Of a stretch of 64,000 nucleotides of DNA, positions 19,487-25,182 are shown piece by piece; the stretch's first letter is position 1; each line of letters starts with the position of its first letter. The translations under genes and the position numbers were made by a program. Below the pieces are notes generated by a model. The model was not told the DNA's origin, searched no databases, and was given only the letters and a program-made list of their open reading frames with translations. Origin of the DNA: Sphingomonas sp. (GTDB lineage: Bacteria; Pseudomonadota; Alphaproteobacteria; Sphingomonadales; Sphingomonadaceae); the NCBI RefSeq assembly GCF_017304635.1, contig NZ_JAFKMA010000003.1, positions 191,001 through 255,000 of the forward strand, given 5' to 3'.

Positions 19487-19885
19487 TCAACGTTCGCTGG
19501 CGCGACCCGTGACCTCACCAACGAACCGCGCCAGGTCGCCGAACGTCGCGTCGTCGAAGCCAAGGCCGTGATCGGTGTCGACCAGCGGCGCCAGCGCGGC
19601 GGCGGCCATCAGGTGGTGCTGGTCGAAGGCGCGGTCGGGATCGCGAATGTCTTCCCATTTGCGCAACGCGGTCAGTCGCGCGTCGATCGTCCGGGCGACG
19701 ATCTCGCGGCAGGGCATGTCGGCGCACAACGCGTTGTGGCGGGCGTGGTGATCCCAACGCAGATGCTCGGCGAGTTGTGCAAGCGCATGGCGGGCGGCCG
19801 ACAATTGCTCGACGTTGACGGTGATGGCGTTCAGTTCGTCGTGGTGTGGCGCGGTCTGGATCGGGATGGTTATCATCTCGATCAT
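19487..19885 (-). CDS. Hypothetical protein behind an FNR/FixK-like box
   Basis: A soluble protein of about 132 residues with no family I recognise. It is rich in Asp, His, Ala and Arg and predicted helical; His-rich stretches (DHHARHNAL, FDQHHLM, DTDHGLG) could bind metal, loosely recalling hemerythrin-type helices, but the required spacing is not evident. The start is uncertain: ATG 19885 or 19876, with no strong SD; a longer ORF to 19930 would enter the regulatory palindrome at 19934-19947. It is the most telomere-like end gene of the Crp/Fnr island, on the same strand as the regulator. Confidence 0.5.
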   Translation of the reverse strand: MIEMITIPIQTAPHHDELNAITVNVEQLSAARHALAQLAEHLRWDHHARHNALCADMPCREIVARTIDARLTALRKWEDIRDPDRAFDQHHLMAAAALAPLVDTDHGLGFDDATFGDLARFVGEVTGRASER

Positions 19886-19933
19886 CAAACCCGTAGTGGT
19901 CGTGCCGGGTTGCCCGGCGCGCGCGAACAATCG

Positions 19934-19947
19934 CGCTGATCCAGATC
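19934..19947. promoter_or_regulatory. FNR/FixK-like box 1
   Basis: CTGATCCAGATCAA fits the FixK/FNR consensus TTGAYC-NN-GATCAA with one mismatch (first base). It is centred about 55 bases before the presumed start of the gene ending at 19487, which fits activation at -41.5 with a short leader. Two further copies lie in the same island. Confidence 0.55.
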
Positions 19948-19980
19948 AAGTCGGTTCGAAAACGGGACGCATTGGAGCCG

Positions 19981-20136
19981 TTACACCGGCCGCGACAAAC
20001 CGAGCCGCCGCATCTGGTTGCGGATTTCGCTGACCGGACGGCCGAGCGACAGCGCGATCTCCGCGATCGACCAGCGTTTCCACAACAGCGCGCGCAGGCG
20101 ACGGTTGGCGGCTTCGGGCCAGGCGAGCTGCGTCAT
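19981..20136 (-). CDS. Mini GcrA-like helix-turn-helix protein
   Basis: A 51-residue protein consisting only of a helix-turn-helix: WPEAANRRLRALLWKRWSIA, then EIALSLGRPVSEIRNQMRRLGLS. The pattern (Trp, LW, SxxEIA, LG, xxRNxxxRLGLS) resembles the DNA-binding head of the alphaproteobacterial cell-cycle factor GcrA, without its C-terminal sigma-binding half. GGAG lies nine bases before the ATG, supporting translation as a small protein; the longer ORF upstream is intergenic. It sits between the Crp/Fnr regulator and the hypothetical gene on the same strand. A regulatory role is inference. Confidence 0.6.
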   Translation of the reverse strand: MTQLAWPEAANRRLRALLWKRWSIAEIALSLGRPVSEIRNQMRRLGLSRPV

Positions 20137-20231
20137 GTCCGAAATCTCCGGTAGAGGATCGGACGGCAACGCCGCGTCATCGGCATGGTTGCATCCTTCT
20201 AACCTCGCGCAATGCGATGAGCGGGAATCGC

Positions 20232-21014
20232 TCAGCGCCGCAACGGTCCGTCGCCATTGACCGGCGGGATCGCGACTGGCTGCATATCGCGACCGAGCCA
20301 CGACACATCGGTCGACACGGTCCGCGGCCGTACCGCAGCCAGCCGCCGCAACGCCGACGGGTCGATCAATCGCACCCGGCGGCCTCGCCGCGCAACCAGC
20401 CCAAGTTCCTGCAACTGCCGCAGCATGCGATTGACGTGCACCGGAGTCAGCGCCAGCAGGTCGCCGATCTGTTCCTGGGTGAGCGCCAAGTCGAAACCGT
20501 CGTCATCGCCATGGCCAATGCGGTGCAGGCGATCGCTCAGCTCGATCAGCAAAGCGGCGACGCGTGCCAGCGCACTCGCACGACCGACCGCGGCCAGCCG
20601 GTCCATCAGTACGGTCCGCTCCTCCTGTGCCGCCAACAGCATGGTCACCGCGATCGCGGGAGAGGTCATCATCAGCGCGCCGATCCGCTCGAGCGGGATG
20701 CGGCTGACCACCGCCGGCGTCAACGCCGTCACCGTATCGACCGCGCTGTCGAAGCACATGCTCGTGCTGCCCAGCATGTCGCCCGGCAAGTGCAGCTTCA
20801 CGATCTGCCGCTCGCCGTCCCACAACAGCATCGAGGCGGCGACCCACCCTTCGAGCAAGAAGTACACCGAGCGGTCGCTGCTGCCTTCGGAGCGGATCAC
20901 GCCATAACGCGCGATGCGTTGCGGCGGCTCGCCGAGCGCCTGGATGCGCGCGACGTCGGCCGGAGTCAGCAATGAAGTCGCGGTCAGACGATAGGTCGGA
21001 AAATTCGTTGTCAC
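20232..21014 (-). CDS. Crp/Fnr-family transcriptional regulator
   Basis: A 260-residue regulator with an N-terminal cyclic-nucleotide-binding-like beta barrel (RYGVIRSEGSSDRSVYFLLEGWV to about residue 115), a long dimer helix and a C-terminal winged HTH (LTQEQIGDLLALTPVHVNRMLR, about 175-200). It lacks the N-terminal Cys cluster of oxygen-sensing FNR, and the cAMP-pocket residues are not conserved, so the signal is unknown; it is closer to FixK-like members. The recognition helix reads TPVHVNR rather than ExxSR of FNR. It starts at GTG 21014 with GGGGAA upstream. It faces the SRPBCC gene across a 218-base gap holding an FNR-like palindrome. Confidence 0.88.
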   Translation of the reverse strand: MTTNFPTYRLTATSLLTPADVARIQALGEPPQRIARYGVIRSEGSSDRSVYFLLEGWVAASMLLWDGERQIVKLHLPGDMLGSTSMCFDSAVDTVTALTPAVVSRIPLERIGALMMTSPAIAVTMLLAAQEERTVLMDRLAAVGRASALARVAALLIELSDRLHRIGHGDDDGFDLALTQEQIGDLLALTPVHVNRMLRQLQELGLVARRGRRVRLIDPSALRRLAAVRPRTVSTDVSWLGRDMQPVAIPPVNGDGPLRR

Positions 21015-21133
21015 AGCCGGTTCCCCGGCGCTCGACTAGCCGAGCCATCGGGCCATCGCGTTGATGCGCGTTAAAGCATCGCGATGCCAATGCGATGGCG
21101 TTGAACAGCCCGCGCACTCGATCGCGACTCAGT

Positions 21134-21147
21134 TTAACCTGGATCAG
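21134..21147. promoter_or_regulatory. FNR/FixK-like box 2 in divergent promoter region
   Basis: TTAACCTGGATCAG fits TTGAYC-NN-GATCAA with two mismatches. It lies between the divergent Crp/Fnr gene (start 21014) and the SRPBCC gene (start 21233), so it could serve either or both. Confidence 0.5.
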
Positions 21148-21232
21148 ACAACTATCTGATTCGACGCCGGAATTGCCGGAACAATGGGACGCGGCGTTCG
21201 CTTGGGAAAGCTCCGCCGCCGTGGAGAACGCG

Positions 21233-21817
21233 ATGCCCCCGACTGATGTCCGAACCGACGATGCACCGCTGACGGCGTCCAAGCGGCACGACGCGGTCGC
21301 CGACGCGACCGACAACGTGATCGAAGCGAAGGGCGACACCCTCATCGGTCGCGCCGTCACGATCAACCGGCCCGCCGCCGAACTGTTCGCATACTGGCGC
21401 GACTTCGCCAACCTGGCAACGTTCATGGAGAATGTCGAACGCGTCGACGTGCTCGACGACGCGCGCTCGCACTGGGTGGTCAAGGCGCCCGGCGGTAAGA
21501 CCGTCGAATGGGACGCGGTCGTCACTGAGGAAGCCAAGGACAGTTTCATCGCCTGGGCCTCGTCCGAAGGCGCCGATGTGCCGAACAGCGGCCGGATCGA
21601 TTTCCGCGACGCCGGCGATCGCGGCACCGTGGTCACCGCGACGATCCTCTACGACCCGCCGGCCGGTGCGATCGGCAAGCTGATCGCCAAAGTGTTCCAG
21701 CGCGAGCCCGCCATCCAGGCGCGCCGCGACCTGCGCCGGTTCAAGCAACTGATGGAAACCGGCGAGATCGCGACCGCGGCGATGAACCGCGAACAATTCG
21801 AGGAGGAAGGCGCATGA
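21233..21817 (+). CDS. SRPBCC-fold (cyclase/dehydrase-like) protein
   Basis: A 194-residue protein with a hydrophilic N-terminal stretch of about 35 residues and one START/SRPBCC domain: [34 protein letters not shown], then [17 protein letters not shown] and [15 protein letters not shown]. This is the polyketide cyclase/dehydrase type also found in YndB-like membrane-stress proteins; it binds a hydrophobic ligand and has no clear catalytic residues. ATG 21233 is chosen because GGAGAA lies upstream; the ORF extension to 21095 crosses the FNR-like box. Its stop overlaps the alcohol dehydrogenase start by four bases, so the two proteins are made together. Confidence 0.83.
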
Positions 21818-22998
21818 AGGCGCTTGCGTGGCACGGCAAGCACGACGTGCGCATCGACAACGTGCCAGATCCCGGCATCGTCAACCCGCGCGATGCGATC
21901 ATCAAGGTGACCGCCACCGCGATCTGCGGATCGGACCTGCACCTCTACGACGGTTATATCCCGACGATGCAAGCGGGTGACGTGCTCGGGCACGAGTTCA
22001 TGGGCGAGGTGGTCGAGACCGGCCCCAAGTCGACGCTCAAGAAGGGTCAGAAGATCGTCGTCCCGTTCACCATCGCTTGCGGCAATTGCTACCATTGCGG
22101 CAAGCATCAATATTCGGCGTGCGATAACGGGCTGCCCGCAGACAACCAGGACATCGCGCAGGAACTGTACGGCCAGCCAATGTCGGGCCTGTTCGGCTAC
22201 AGCCACATGACCGGCGGCTATGCCGGCGGCCAGGCCGAATATGTCCGCGTGCCGTTCAGCGACGTCGGCCCGATCGTGATACCCGACGGGATCGACGACG
22301 AGAAGGTGCTGTTCCTGTCCGACATCCTGCCCACCGGGTGGATGGCAGCGGAAAATGCCGAGATCGAGCCCGGCGACATCGTCGCGGTGTGGGGGTGCGG
22401 CCCGGTCGGTCTCTTCGCGGTGCAATCGGCCAAACTGATGGGCGCCGATCGCGTCATTGCGATCGACCATTTCCCGCACCGGCTCGAACTCGCCAAGCAG
22501 TTCGGCGCAGAGACGATCAACTACGAGGAATCGGCGGTCTATGAGGCGCTGATGGAGATGACCGGCGGGATCGGCCCCGACGCGGTGATCGATTGCGTCG
22601 GGCTGGAGGCGCACGGCTTTTTCGTCGATAACGTGCTCGACCAAGTCAAGAAGTCGACCTTCCTCGGCACCGACCGTATCCACGCCAATCGCCAAGCGAT
22701 CATCGCCTGTCGCAAGGGCGGGCGCGTGTCGATGCCGGCGGTCTATGGCGGGTTCGTCGACAAATGGCCGCTGGGCGCGTTCATGGAGAAGGGGCTGACG
22801 CTCAAGACCGGTCAGACCCACGTCCAGCACTACATGCCCGGGCTGCTTCAGGCGATCTTGGACGGGAAGATCGATACGACCTTCCTCATCAGCCACCGGT
22901 TGCCGCTCAAGCAGGCGCCGGACGGCTACAGGATGTTCCACGATGACCAGAACGAAGTGACCAAAGTCGTGCTCAAACCGGGTTTGGCAGCAGCCTGA
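21814..22998 (+). CDS. Zinc-dependent MDR alcohol dehydrogenase
   Basis: A 394-residue medium-chain dehydrogenase, closest in pattern to the glutathione-independent formaldehyde dehydrogenase-like group. Catalytic zinc ligands are Cys38 (ICGSDLH), His60 and Glu61 (GHEFMGEV); the structural zinc site is Cys89, 92, 95 and 103. The Rossmann loop [21 protein letters not shown] lies near 190-210. An acidic residue after the second strand (AIDHF) suggests NAD. It is coupled to the SRPBCC gene by ATGA. In sphingomonads this pair recurs with SDR genes in stress regions (family knowledge); the natural alcohol or aldehyde is unknown. Confidence 0.9.
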
Positions 22999-22999
22999 T

Positions 23000-23093
23000 C
23001 CCCTCCCGCTTGTCGGATGGGTCAAGGAAGGGCGCATGCGTCCTCGCCGCTCTCGACAAGCCCTCCACCAGCCCCTCCCACCAGCGGGAGGAG
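23000..23093. repeat. Decayed REP/REPIN-like inverted repeat
   Basis: The arm CCCCTCCCGCTTG near 23000 and the arm AGCCCCTCCCACCAGCGGGA near 23070-23090 resemble the two ends of the better-preserved element at 45653-45762. CCTCCC/GGGAGG still forms a hairpin. It sits in the gap between two co-directional genes of one cluster. Confidence 0.5.
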
Positions 23094-23109
23094 AGAAAGA
23101 AGGAAGATC

Positions 23110-23886
23110 ATGCCCGAAAAATTCGCAGTCATCACCGGCGGCTCGACCGGAATCGGCGCCGAACTCGTGAAGCTGGCGGTCAAGGACGGTTACAGCGTAC
23201 TGACCGCCGCCGACACGCCGTTCACCGAAGATTTCGGCCCGGAGGTCGAGACGCTCGACGTCGACCTGTCGACCGTTGAAGGCGTCGATCGATTGCTGTC
23301 GCGGGCGGACGATCGCCGCATCGACCTGCTCTGTGCCAATGCGGGGCACGGGCTCGGCCACGCCTTCCTCGATCAGAAGGTCGAGGACTGGCGGCACGTG
23401 ATCGACACTAACATCACCGGTACGATCTACCTGCTCCACAAGGTGCTGCCGGCGATGGTCGCGCGCAACGAGGGCAAGGTGCTGGTGACCGGATCGATCG
23501 CCGGCTACATCCCCGGCAGCTTCCAGGCGGTCTATAATGCGTCGAAATCGTTCGTCGATTACTTCACGGACGCGATTCGCAACGAACTGAAGGAGTCGGA
23601 CGGCGTCCAGATCACGACGTTGAAGCCCGGCCCGGTCGATACCGATTTCTTCGCGCGCGGCGATATGCTCGACACCTTGGTCGGCGATCCCGACACGCCG
23701 GAGAAGCGCCGCGACCCGGCACTCGTCGCGAAGGACGGCTGGGACGCGCTGATGAGCGGCAAGGACTCGATCTTCTCCGGCTGGTCGACCAAGATCCAGG
23801 GTGAGATGGCCGGGATCACCCCGGCGTCCGTCCTCGCCGAACAGCATCGCAAGATGGCCGAACCCGGCTCGGCCGACAAGAACTGA
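23110..23886 (+). CDS. Short-chain dehydrogenase/reductase
   Basis: A 258-residue classical SDR. Cofactor motif TGGSTGIG (9-16), NAGHG (77-81) and the catalytic set Asn101, Ser129, Tyr142 and Lys146 (YNASK) are present; PGPVDTDFF follows the active site. The C-terminal tail after about residue 200 (DMLDTLVGDPDTPEKRRDP) is longer than in minimal SDRs and matches a group of alphaproteobacterial SDRs with a Lys/Asp-rich lid. AGGAAG precedes the ATG. It shares one base with the following HbpS-like gene (TGATG overlap), and follows the alcohol dehydrogenase after a REP-like gap, so together they may oxidise or reduce a common carbonyl compound (inference). Confidence 0.9.
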   Translation: MPEKFAVITGGSTGIGAELVKLAVKDGYSVLTAADTPFTEDFGPEVETLDVDLSTVEGVDRLLSRADDRRIDLLCANAGHGLGHAFLDQKVEDWRHVIDTNITGTIYLLHKVLPAMVARNEGKVLVTGSIAGYIPGSFQAVYNASKSFVDYFTDAIRNELKESDGVQITTLKPGPVDTDFFARGDMLDTLVGDPDTPEKRRDPALVAKDGWDALMSGKDSIFSGWSTKIQGEMAGITPASVLAEQHRKMAEPGSADKN

Positions 23887-24329
23887 TGGTCATGATGATC
23901 GAAACGCTGTCGCTCGGCGATGCCCGCCGGATGCTGATGACGGCGGAGGCGAAGGCCGCGCAGATCGGCGTGCCGTCGAACATCGCGGTGGTCGATGCCG
24001 GCGGCAACCTGCTGGCATTCGCGCGTATGGACGGGGCGTGGCTCGGCTCGATCGACATCGCGATCGACAAGGCGTTCACCGCGCGCGCGTTCGACATGAC
24101 GACCGAGGAACTGGGCGCGATGTCGCAGCCGAAGCGGATGACGTTCGGTATCCAGAACACCAATCACGATCGCGTCGTCATCTTCGGCGGCGGCGTGCCG
24201 GTGAAGGTCGGCGAGACCGTGATCGGCGCGATCGGATCGAGCGGCGGCACGGTCGATCAGGACGTCGAGATCGTCGAAGCCGCACTGGCCGCCTTCGAAG
24301 AAGAGCGGTCGCGGCACGCGGTCATCTGA
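23886..24329 (+). CDS. GlcG/HbpS-family protein
   Basis: A 147-residue protein of the GlcG/HbpS fold: IAVVDAGGNLLAFARMDGAWLGS (about 35-57), DIAIDKAFTARAF and FGGGVPVKVGETVIGAIGSSGG. Members bind haem (HbpS) or accompany glycolate, diol and corrinoid enzymes, apparently as accessory or ligand-binding proteins; none has a well-defined enzyme role. There is no signal peptide, so it stays cytoplasmic. The start overlaps the SDR stop by one base, making this the last gene of the SRPBCC-ADH-SDR-HbpS cluster. A perfect 12-bp hairpin follows. Confidence 0.85.
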   Translation: MVMMIETLSLGDARRMLMTAEAKAAQIGVPSNIAVVDAGGNLLAFARMDGAWLGSIDIAIDKAFTARAFDMTTEELGAMSQPKRMTFGIQNTNHDRVVIFGGGVPVKVGETVIGAIGSSGGTVDQDVEIVEAALAAFEEERSRHAVI

Positions 24330-24347
24330 CGGCTCACCCGCGTATTT

Positions 24348-24384
24348 GGCGGTCGTGTCACGTCTGGCGCGCGACACGACCGCC
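24348..24384. terminator. Bidirectional terminator-like 12-bp hairpin
   Basis: GGCGGTCGTGTC (24348-24359) and GACACGACCGCC (24373-24384) are perfectly complementary with a 13-base loop. It lies between convergent genes ending at 24329 and 24389. On the minus strand it is followed by a short AAATA; on the plus strand by TCGCTT, so U-runs are poor. Confidence 0.6.
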
Positions 24385-24388
24385 TCGC

Positions 24389-24874
24389 TTACATCGACTG
24401 CAGCATCGCGATGTGGTGCCGCACGACCGGCACGATCTGCGAGGCCGCCGTGCGCAGGCTCGGCACGCTGCCGCTGCGCGCATAATCCTGATGCAACGCC
24501 AGCGCCTGATCGTGCGCGGTTCGTTGCTGCGAGATGTAGAGCGTGTCCCGCTCCGCCCCATGCGCGGCGCGCAGCTGGGCCATCATGGTGCGCTGATCGG
24601 GGGTCAGCATCGGCGGCGTGACGCGCATCCGCGCGCGCATCGCCGCTTGTTTGACCAACGTCGTGCTCTTGGTGTGATCCCGGATCATGTCGCGCACGAA
24701 GGCACGGAGCTTGGCGTTGCGCGTGGTGTCGGCGACGAGCTGGCTCGATTGCCGCTCGTACAGGTCGCTGGCGCCGGCGGTCATGACATAGTCGCGCGGA
24801 GACGTCGCCGCATGAACCGCGGTGGTCGCGACCAAAGCTGCGGGTATGGCCAGCATCAGATAGCGTTGCATCAT
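24389..24874 (-). CDS. Exported DUF4142 protein
   Basis: A 161-residue periplasmic protein with a signal peptide (MLAIPAALVATTAVHAA) and a helical DUF4142 (ferritin-like) domain: VMTAGASDLYERQSSQL, FVRDMIRDHTKSTTLVKQAA and QRTAHDQALALHQDYA. DUF4142 proteins are common in stress-related alphaproteobacterial loci; metal binding is possible (several His and Glu in helices) but unproven. GAGGAGAAG precedes tandem ATG codons at 24874 and 24871. An FNR/FixK-like palindrome lies 107 bases upstream. Confidence 0.85.
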   Translation of the reverse strand: MMQRYLMLAIPAALVATTAVHAATSPRDYVMTAGASDLYERQSSQLVADTTRNAKLRAFVRDMIRDHTKSTTLVKQAAMRARMRVTPPMLTPDQRTMMAQLRAAHGAERDTLYISQQRTAHDQALALHQDYARSGSVPSLRTAASQIVPVVRHHIAMLQSM

Positions 24875-25182
24875 CTTCTCCTCATGAAGGGCATAGCGGA
24901 TCGACGCCTATCGCGGGGCGTCGTCGCCCTGTAGATCGAACCGGGAAGCGGTCTCGACCGTTCCCGATCACGCTGCTGAACTGATCGAGATCAGCACGAT
25001 TCCGCTCGACCCAAATCGACGCTATTTCAGATATTTGGCGTCGCGATCCCCATTTACGGCGCTCAATCGCGGTTGGCGCCAAGACGTTTGGCCGTTGGAA
25101 AGCGGCAGTACGTCCGGGCTGTCGCTTCTTGCCGCTGCTTCGTGCTAGTCCACGGCTCTTGAAGCGTTAGAAAGAGGTGAGG
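24875..25182. other. 308-base divergent promoter region
   Basis: No gene is supported here; the minus-strand ORF at 24882-25082 has no ribosome site or recognisable product. The gap separates the DUF4142 gene from the GH13 gene and holds the FNR/FixK-like palindrome at 24981-24994. I could not define -35/-10 boxes. Confidence 0.6.
24981..24994. promoter_or_regulatory. FNR/FixK-like box 3
   Basis: CTGATCGAGATCAG is a near-perfect palindrome (CTGATC-GA-GATCAG) and fits TTGAYC-NN-GATCAA with one mismatch at each end. It lies 107 bases before the DUF4142 start and 188 bases before the GH13 start. Confidence 0.5.

Follow-up and report, generated by a model that had tools for sequence, protein, structure and literature searches.

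A 64,000-nucleotide stretch of a Sphingomonas sp. genome (RefSeq assembly GCF_017304635.1, contig NZ_JAFKMA010000003.1, positions 191,001 to 255,000; hereafter the window) contains a compact block in which the gene of a Crp/Fnr-family regulator lies divergently from a cluster encoding SRPBCC, alcohol dehydrogenase (ADH), short-chain dehydrogenase (SDR) and HbpS-like proteins, with a DUF4142 gene and a small hypothetical gene to its two sides (Table 1). A preliminary description of this DNA had noticed three palindromes of FNR/FixK type in the gaps between these genes and had read them as a local regulon, perhaps one responding to low oxygen or redox state. The comparisons reported here indicate that two of them, boxes 2 and 3, lie at places where an operator is conserved ahead of promoters of the type used by the stress sigma factor EcfG. 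They also point to a feature that the preliminary description had missed, namely an EcfG-type GGAAC element at preferred distances from the boxes.

Table 1 Boxes, promoter elements and genes of the block (window coordinates)
Feature	Position	Strand	Remarks
Box 1, CTGATCCAGATCAA	19936-19949	-	Between 66-aa ORF and hypothetical gene; matrix rank 1
Box 2, TTAACCTGGATCAG	21134-21147	+	Upstream of SRPBCC; matrix rank 3
Box 3, CTGATCGAGATCAG	24981-24994	-	Upstream of DUF4142; matrix rank 2
Box 4, TTGATGCGCGTTAA, newly found, degenerate	21061-21074		Regulator/SRPBCC gap; matrix rank 4
GGAAC, putative EcfG -35 element of SRPBCC operon	21178-21182	+	30 nt after box 2
GGAAC, putative EcfG -35 element of DUF4142 gene	24960-24964	-	16 nt after box 3
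GGAAC	21024-21020	-	36 nt after box 4 (counted by eye)
Crp/Fnr-family regulator, recognition helix TPVHVNRMLRQL	20232-21014	-	PF13545 E 5e-18, PF00027 E 3e-13
SRPBCC protein (polyketide cyclase/START-like)	21233-21817	+	PF03364
Zinc-dependent ADH	21814-22998	+	PF08240, PF00107
SDR	23110-23886	+	PF00106
HbpS-like protein	23886-24329	+	PF03928
DUF4142 protein	24389-24874	-	PF13628 E 6e-27
Hypothetical protein, 132 aa (147 aa if start is TTG 19930)	19487-19885	-	
66-aa open reading frame (ORF)	19981-20181		Beyond box 1 from hypothetical gene

Boxes around a Crp/Fnr regulator gene

The divergent arrangement of regulator and cluster is borne out by the Pfam assignments, and the three palindromes are present in intergenic DNA as described, box 1 with one mismatch to TTGAYCNNGATCAA and boxes 2 and 3 with two each, although the first had been placed two bases too low. 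Allowing up to two mismatches to this pattern gives 21 strand matches in the window, spread over 14 places, whereas dinucleotide shuffles lead one to expect 5.07 and none of 100 reaches 21. Because 11 of the 14 places are sites other than boxes 1 to 3, the two-mismatch criterion does not single these out, and the choice of the three therefore needs an outside criterion. This was provided by a weight matrix built on 36 unique boxes that precede SRPBCC genes of other genomes, with the own genome left out; its training boxes were chosen by closeness to TTGATN4ATCAA, so that it is not wholly independent of the similar pattern used in the preliminary description. Among the 63,987 positions of the window, boxes 1 to 3 rank first, third and second in position order, and shuffled windows contain a mean of 0.25 positions (maximum 2; 100 Markov shuffles) that reach the third-best score. 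The FNR/FixK-like character of the palindromes is upheld. The next score belongs to box 4, which stands 46 nt from the GTG start of the regulator gene and may serve autoregulation. The four best scores of the window all fall within 5.1 kb around the regulator.

Conservation and spacing to a putative stress-promoter element

Matches to the SRPBCC protein are present in 106 of 151 genomes of the genus, and 105 upstream regions of its gene were taken, 104 of them distinct, from 103 genomes. A box with at most two mismatches to TTGATN4ATCAA occurs in 48 of the 104 (mean 6.3 and maximum 12 in 100 shuffles) and one with at most one mismatch in 25 (mean 0.43, maximum 3). The own genome is counted among the 48 via box 4, because box 2 shows three mismatches to this consensus. 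Box 2 sits at the place of the genus-wide footprint upstream of SRPBCC. The same palindrome emerges when no motif is given, since a count of every exact palindrome whose arms are five bases long and whose gap is 0 to 11 puts TTGAT-N4-ATCAA first, in 10 of 104 regions, while the next reaches 5, as does the best of 30 shuffle sets. Upstream of DUF4142 genes, 13 of 29 relatives carry a box at up to two mismatches (200 shuffles: mean 2.4, maximum 7). A TTGAT-N4-ATCAA palindrome under selection, the mark of an operator, is thus found before SRPBCC and DUF4142, whereas box 1 is a sequence match that is not conserved. The comparison of upstream regions that the preliminary description had proposed as a check speaks for the places of boxes 2 and 3 and not for box 1. 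Around this consensus, a TTAAY half-site and a C as first base are tolerated.

GGAAC is the published -35 element of EcfG promoters in S. melonis and Sphingopyxis granuli (PMC6599016, PMC7083833). Of the 104 regions, 70 have it in the 120 nt that precede the SRPBCC start (shuffles: mean 12.8, maximum 22), and within 60 nt before the GGAAC these 70 regions contain 63 matches to the box at up to three mismatches, compared to a null mean of 7.5 and maximum of 18. The commonest gaps between box and GGAAC are 16-17, 26-27, 31 and 37 nt, and Rayleigh tests, in which six periods were tried in one run and nine in another, return about 2e-4 near 10-10.5 bp for 57 unique cases from related genomes. Before DUF4142, GGAAC follows the box in 5 of the 13 box-bearing relatives, with gaps of 17, 17, 16, 31 and 37 nt. 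The published promoters, GGAAC-N17-20-GTT (PMC6599016) and GGAAC-N16-CGTT (PMC7083833), thus share their -35 element with the DNA before SRPBCC and DUF4142, and differ from it in that here a Crp/Fnr-type box stands upstream at preferred distances and the -10 elements are imperfect: read by eye, the candidates are CGCTT and CGGTT at N16, as against CGTT or GTT at N16-N20. From such promoters, the boxes would lie at roughly -55 to -80 relative to the transcription start. A stress promoter for the regulator gene itself is doubtful, because the GGAAC on its side starts merely 10 nt before the GTG.

Candidate binding proteins

The regulator of the block belongs to the Crp/Fnr superfamily, as its cNMP-binding domain (PF00027) and Crp helix-turn-helix (PF13545) both score above cut-off. 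It has a single Cys in the whole protein and thus no FNR Cys cluster, carries TPVHVNR and no ExxSR recognition helix, both as previously noted, and scores far under the NCBIfam cut-offs for Fnr and FixK. From this the preliminary description had concluded that either the target of this helix differs or another FNR-type protein binds the boxes. The first option fits better, in a form in which the helix still reads this box, and a VHVNR-type protein rather than an oxygen-sensing FNR is the likely binder. Specifically, all five full-length Crp/Fnr (PF13545) proteins of the own genome, which measures 3.18 Mb and is 99.9% complete, carry the VHVNR helix. An FnrN-type query, which finds a relative at E<=1e-30 in 78 of the 151 genus genomes, returns no match to FnrN or FixK in the own genome at that threshold, which makes a low-oxygen response through an FNR-type protein unlikely here. 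Moreover, boxes are as frequent in SRPBCC regions from genomes with FnrN/FixK (22 of 47) as in those where none was found (26 of 57; Fisher p 1.0), so that another FNR-type protein is not the general answer. These classes take ExxSR to be present in all 78 matches, helices having been read in 33 ExxSR genes; the NCBIfam Fnr model was uninformative, since none of the 151 genomes passes its cut-off, FnrN-bearing ones included.

Among the alternatives to a VHVNR protein, the one that survives best, if still unlikely, is that the boxes are relict or ordinary FnrN/FixK operators for low oxygen, kept although their regulator was lost, or else recognized by an FNR protein that escaped detection. The operator of FnrN/FixK in Alphaproteobacteria, TTGANCNNGATCAANG (PMC4999443), has the same half-sites and the same 14-bp core as the boxes here, and the sphingomonad box of the FnrN/FixK regulon in Sphingopyxis granuli TFA, TTGAc/t-N4-g/aTCAA, is close to them and occupies a class I position, -60.5, at fixK (PMC7713065). 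Because these consensus sequences are of the same type, the sequence by itself does not reveal the identity of the protein that reads the box. Perfect boxes are also commoner where a close relative of FnrN is present (7 of 29 regions versus 3 of 75; p 0.0045 in one of six tables), and ExxSR genes carry boxes too, at 5 of 33 about as often as other VHVNR genes, both of which count against the VHVNR assignment. A divergent ExxSR protein below the cut-off could exist in other genomes. The own genome does encode a sixth, short Crp-like protein (C2:27604-28224) with the ExxSR-type helix TPESLSR near its C-terminus, which was set aside as binder as it is matched in merely 3 of the 151 genus genomes. 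On the other side stand, besides the missing FnrN/FixK match and the equal box frequencies, the GGAAC of the stress sigma factor at the SRPBCC and DUF4142 promoters. The boxes here also differ from the published FnrN/FixK operator in that TTAAY half-sites are tolerated. FnrN and FixK of Sphingopyxis granuli TFA regulate in anaerobic growth, and stress genes induced anaerobically in that strain were reported not to be Fnr-regulated (PMC7713065). As six of the seven perfect boxes found with a close FnrN share a 26-nt gap to GGAAC, they suggest a single lineage.

A VHVNR protein as reader is favored by a paralogue encoded beside murA, whose recognition helix, VHVNRMLRQLE, is nearly that of the block regulator, VHVNRMLRQLQ. 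In eight of nine genes of this type, own copy included (L207, at about 155.6 kb of contig C3), a box scoring at least 12 lies 66-76 nt before the start, compared to a null of 3.9%; at the stricter score of 14.5, one of the nine retains it. Two of the nine are near copies; the proteins other than the own one are 61-69% identical to it, and the box, mostly TTGATCGA(C/T)TTTAA, forms a conserved island in a promoter whose flanks have diverged. By the same score, 11 of 76 other VHVNR genes and the 5 of 33 ExxSR genes mentioned above carry a box (null 3.9%). In a more distant setting, 14 Hyphomicrobiales loci show two near-invariant boxes, of the TTTAATCTCGATCAA and TTGATCTGGATCAA types, near a VHVNR regulator and ahead of a small ORF whose beginning looks signal-like by eye. 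These loci were selected from L041-L068, which are mostly Hyphomicrobiales, for one visible box, the second being unselected. In L042, a gene that looks by eye like a metal-efflux gene lies nearby.

A possible co-activator of the EcfG response

The available data are compatible with a model to which we assign a probability of about 0.6. The palindromes would be operators of the Crp/Fnr kind with the consensus TTGAT-N4-ATCAA, and a dimeric Crp/Fnr protein would bind them ahead of the EcfG-type promoters of the SRPBCC-ADH-SDR operon and the DUF4142 gene, roughly one to three helical turns away. Once bound, it may help RNA polymerase in the fashion of a class I activator. The binder would most likely be a VHVNR protein, either the block regulator or the paralogue beside murA, with its nearly identical helix and the conserved box in its own promoter, and the gene behind box 1 may be another member of the wider regulon, one that lacks a stress promoter. 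We infer binding, activation, the use of sigma EcfG and the identity of the binder alike from comparative evidence. Class I activation by CRP and FNR uses an operator upstream of the -35 element with a spacing in whole helical turns; the difference here is that the promoter would be that of an ECF sigma factor and not of sigma-70.

Several observations weigh against this model. The genomes compared are related and their counts not independent, 56 of the 104 SRPBCC regions have no box at up to two mismatches, and box 2 deviates from the consensus at three positions. Its 30-nt gap belongs to the minor class of about 31 nt, off the 16-27-37 series, and box matches are also found 7, 9, 11, 14-15 and 42-47 nt from GGAAC. 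Eight of the 13 box-bearing DUF4142 relatives lack a GGAAC after the box, as does box 1, and among 15 other loci of the box 1 gene none has a box at up to one mismatch and two have one at two mismatches. The tie to the block regulator itself is loose, as among 46 Crp/Fnr genes with 40% or more identity to it, own gene included, 2 have an exact box upstream, and the presence of boxes is weakly and inconsistently linked to its clade (p 0.04-0.7 in four tables). The 46 relatives likewise share no upstream palindrome above shuffles, the two just mentioned being the ones with TTGAT-N4-ATCAA. On the supporting side, the EcfG-dependent genes of S. melonis Fr1 include a 'cAMP-binding protein - catabolite gene activator', a Zn-alcohol dehydrogenase and a 'Predicted outer membrane protein', names similar to those of genes considered here; the dehydrogenase, however, was classed there as a putative indirect target of EcfG (PMC6599016).

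Some Crp/Fnr proteins act as repressors, and the regulator might instead hold the stress genes down in good conditions and release them under stress. Such an arrangement would suit box 4, which could repress the regulator's own gene, yet it appears rather improbable, as the boxes lie upstream of and not over GGAAC, at preferred and roughly helical distances that suit an activator touching the polymerase. Less probable still is a purely local switch, in which the block regulator is the sole reader of the three or four boxes that surround it and has no other targets. The clustering of the four best matrix scores agrees with this idea, but exact YTGATN4ATCAR sites number 19 in the own genome, with 2 in this block and 17 elsewhere, so that the confinement of the sites to one island does not hold and the local regulon of the preliminary description is not supported. 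The SRPBCC box recurs in relatives without this regulator beside SRPBCC, and the loose link to the regulator's clade points the same way. Because about 0.5 pairs within 5 kb are expected by chance among 19 sites (an estimate), the pair in the block is not remarkable alone. Finally, chance matches in GATC-rich, high-GC DNA, which the 11 additional two-mismatch places and the unconserved box 1 might suggest, are highly improbable as an overall explanation and largely refuted for boxes 2 and 3 by the matrix ranks and by the footprints at their places, even if box 1 alone could be chance.

The exact sites elsewhere precede, according to gene calls from a simple script, haem-oxygenase-like, radical-SAM, catalase-family, HD-domain, MucR-type regulator, SDR and TonB receptor genes, among others. 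Nine of the 19 touch a called gene, and the midpoint lies inside a gene in 4 and outside in 15, an intergenic enrichment that is weakly controlled given that the stretches had been selected because they contain sites and that the permuted-half control yielded one match overall. GGAAC follows within 60 nt in 4 of the 19 (16, 17, 16 and 22 nt), not clearly above the estimated 2 or so by chance. One site, at C3:153646, reads box, 17 nt and GGAAC ahead of a haem-oxygenase-like gene. A genus-wide pattern of box core plus GGAAC was left unused; it matched 101 of 101 genomes, with at least eight places in the own genome, and most of the matches listed look by eye to be coding.

An FNR-type box is normally taken as a sign of low-oxygen control. 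More tentatively than the model for this block, and at somewhat less than even odds, a large VHVNR subfamily of Crp/Fnr proteins, whose studied member has no Cys cluster, may read the classic FNR box as co-activator of sigma EcfG across Sphingomonas and thereby provide a second input into the stress response. If so, the annotation of FNR regulons in Alphaproteobacteria would need revision, and the EcfG stress response would gain a gene-specific co-activator. The open-access literature searched yielded no account of EcfG promoters that carry a Crp/Fnr box. In Caulobacter, the regulons of FixK and of the EcfG-type factor SigT both answer carbon starvation, which parallels the pairing of a Crp/Fnr-type with a stress-sigma regulon proposed here; they are treated there as separate regulons, FixK being also tied to hypoxia, and the parts of that report drawn on here name no promoter with both elements (PMC3073932).

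Neighbouring genes

Synteny gave no regulon, because none of 70 loci of the regulator's relatives, at identities of up to 54%, adjoins an SRPBCC cluster. The hypothetical protein downstream of box 1, which has no match in Pfam or NCBIfam, is matched in 14 of the 151 genus genomes, own included. Between its ATG at 19885 and box 1 lie 50 nt, and in this interval a perfect short hairpin, GCCGGG-N3-CCCGGC, can be seen by eye at 19904-19918. In the 40 longer stretches examined around SRPBCC, ADH follows SRPBCC in all and SDR in 38, the two exceptions being L154, which ends at a contig end, and L191. A different Crp/Fnr relative, of 31-34% identity, occurs in 6 of these 40 stretches and lies directly beside SRPBCC in 2 of the 6.

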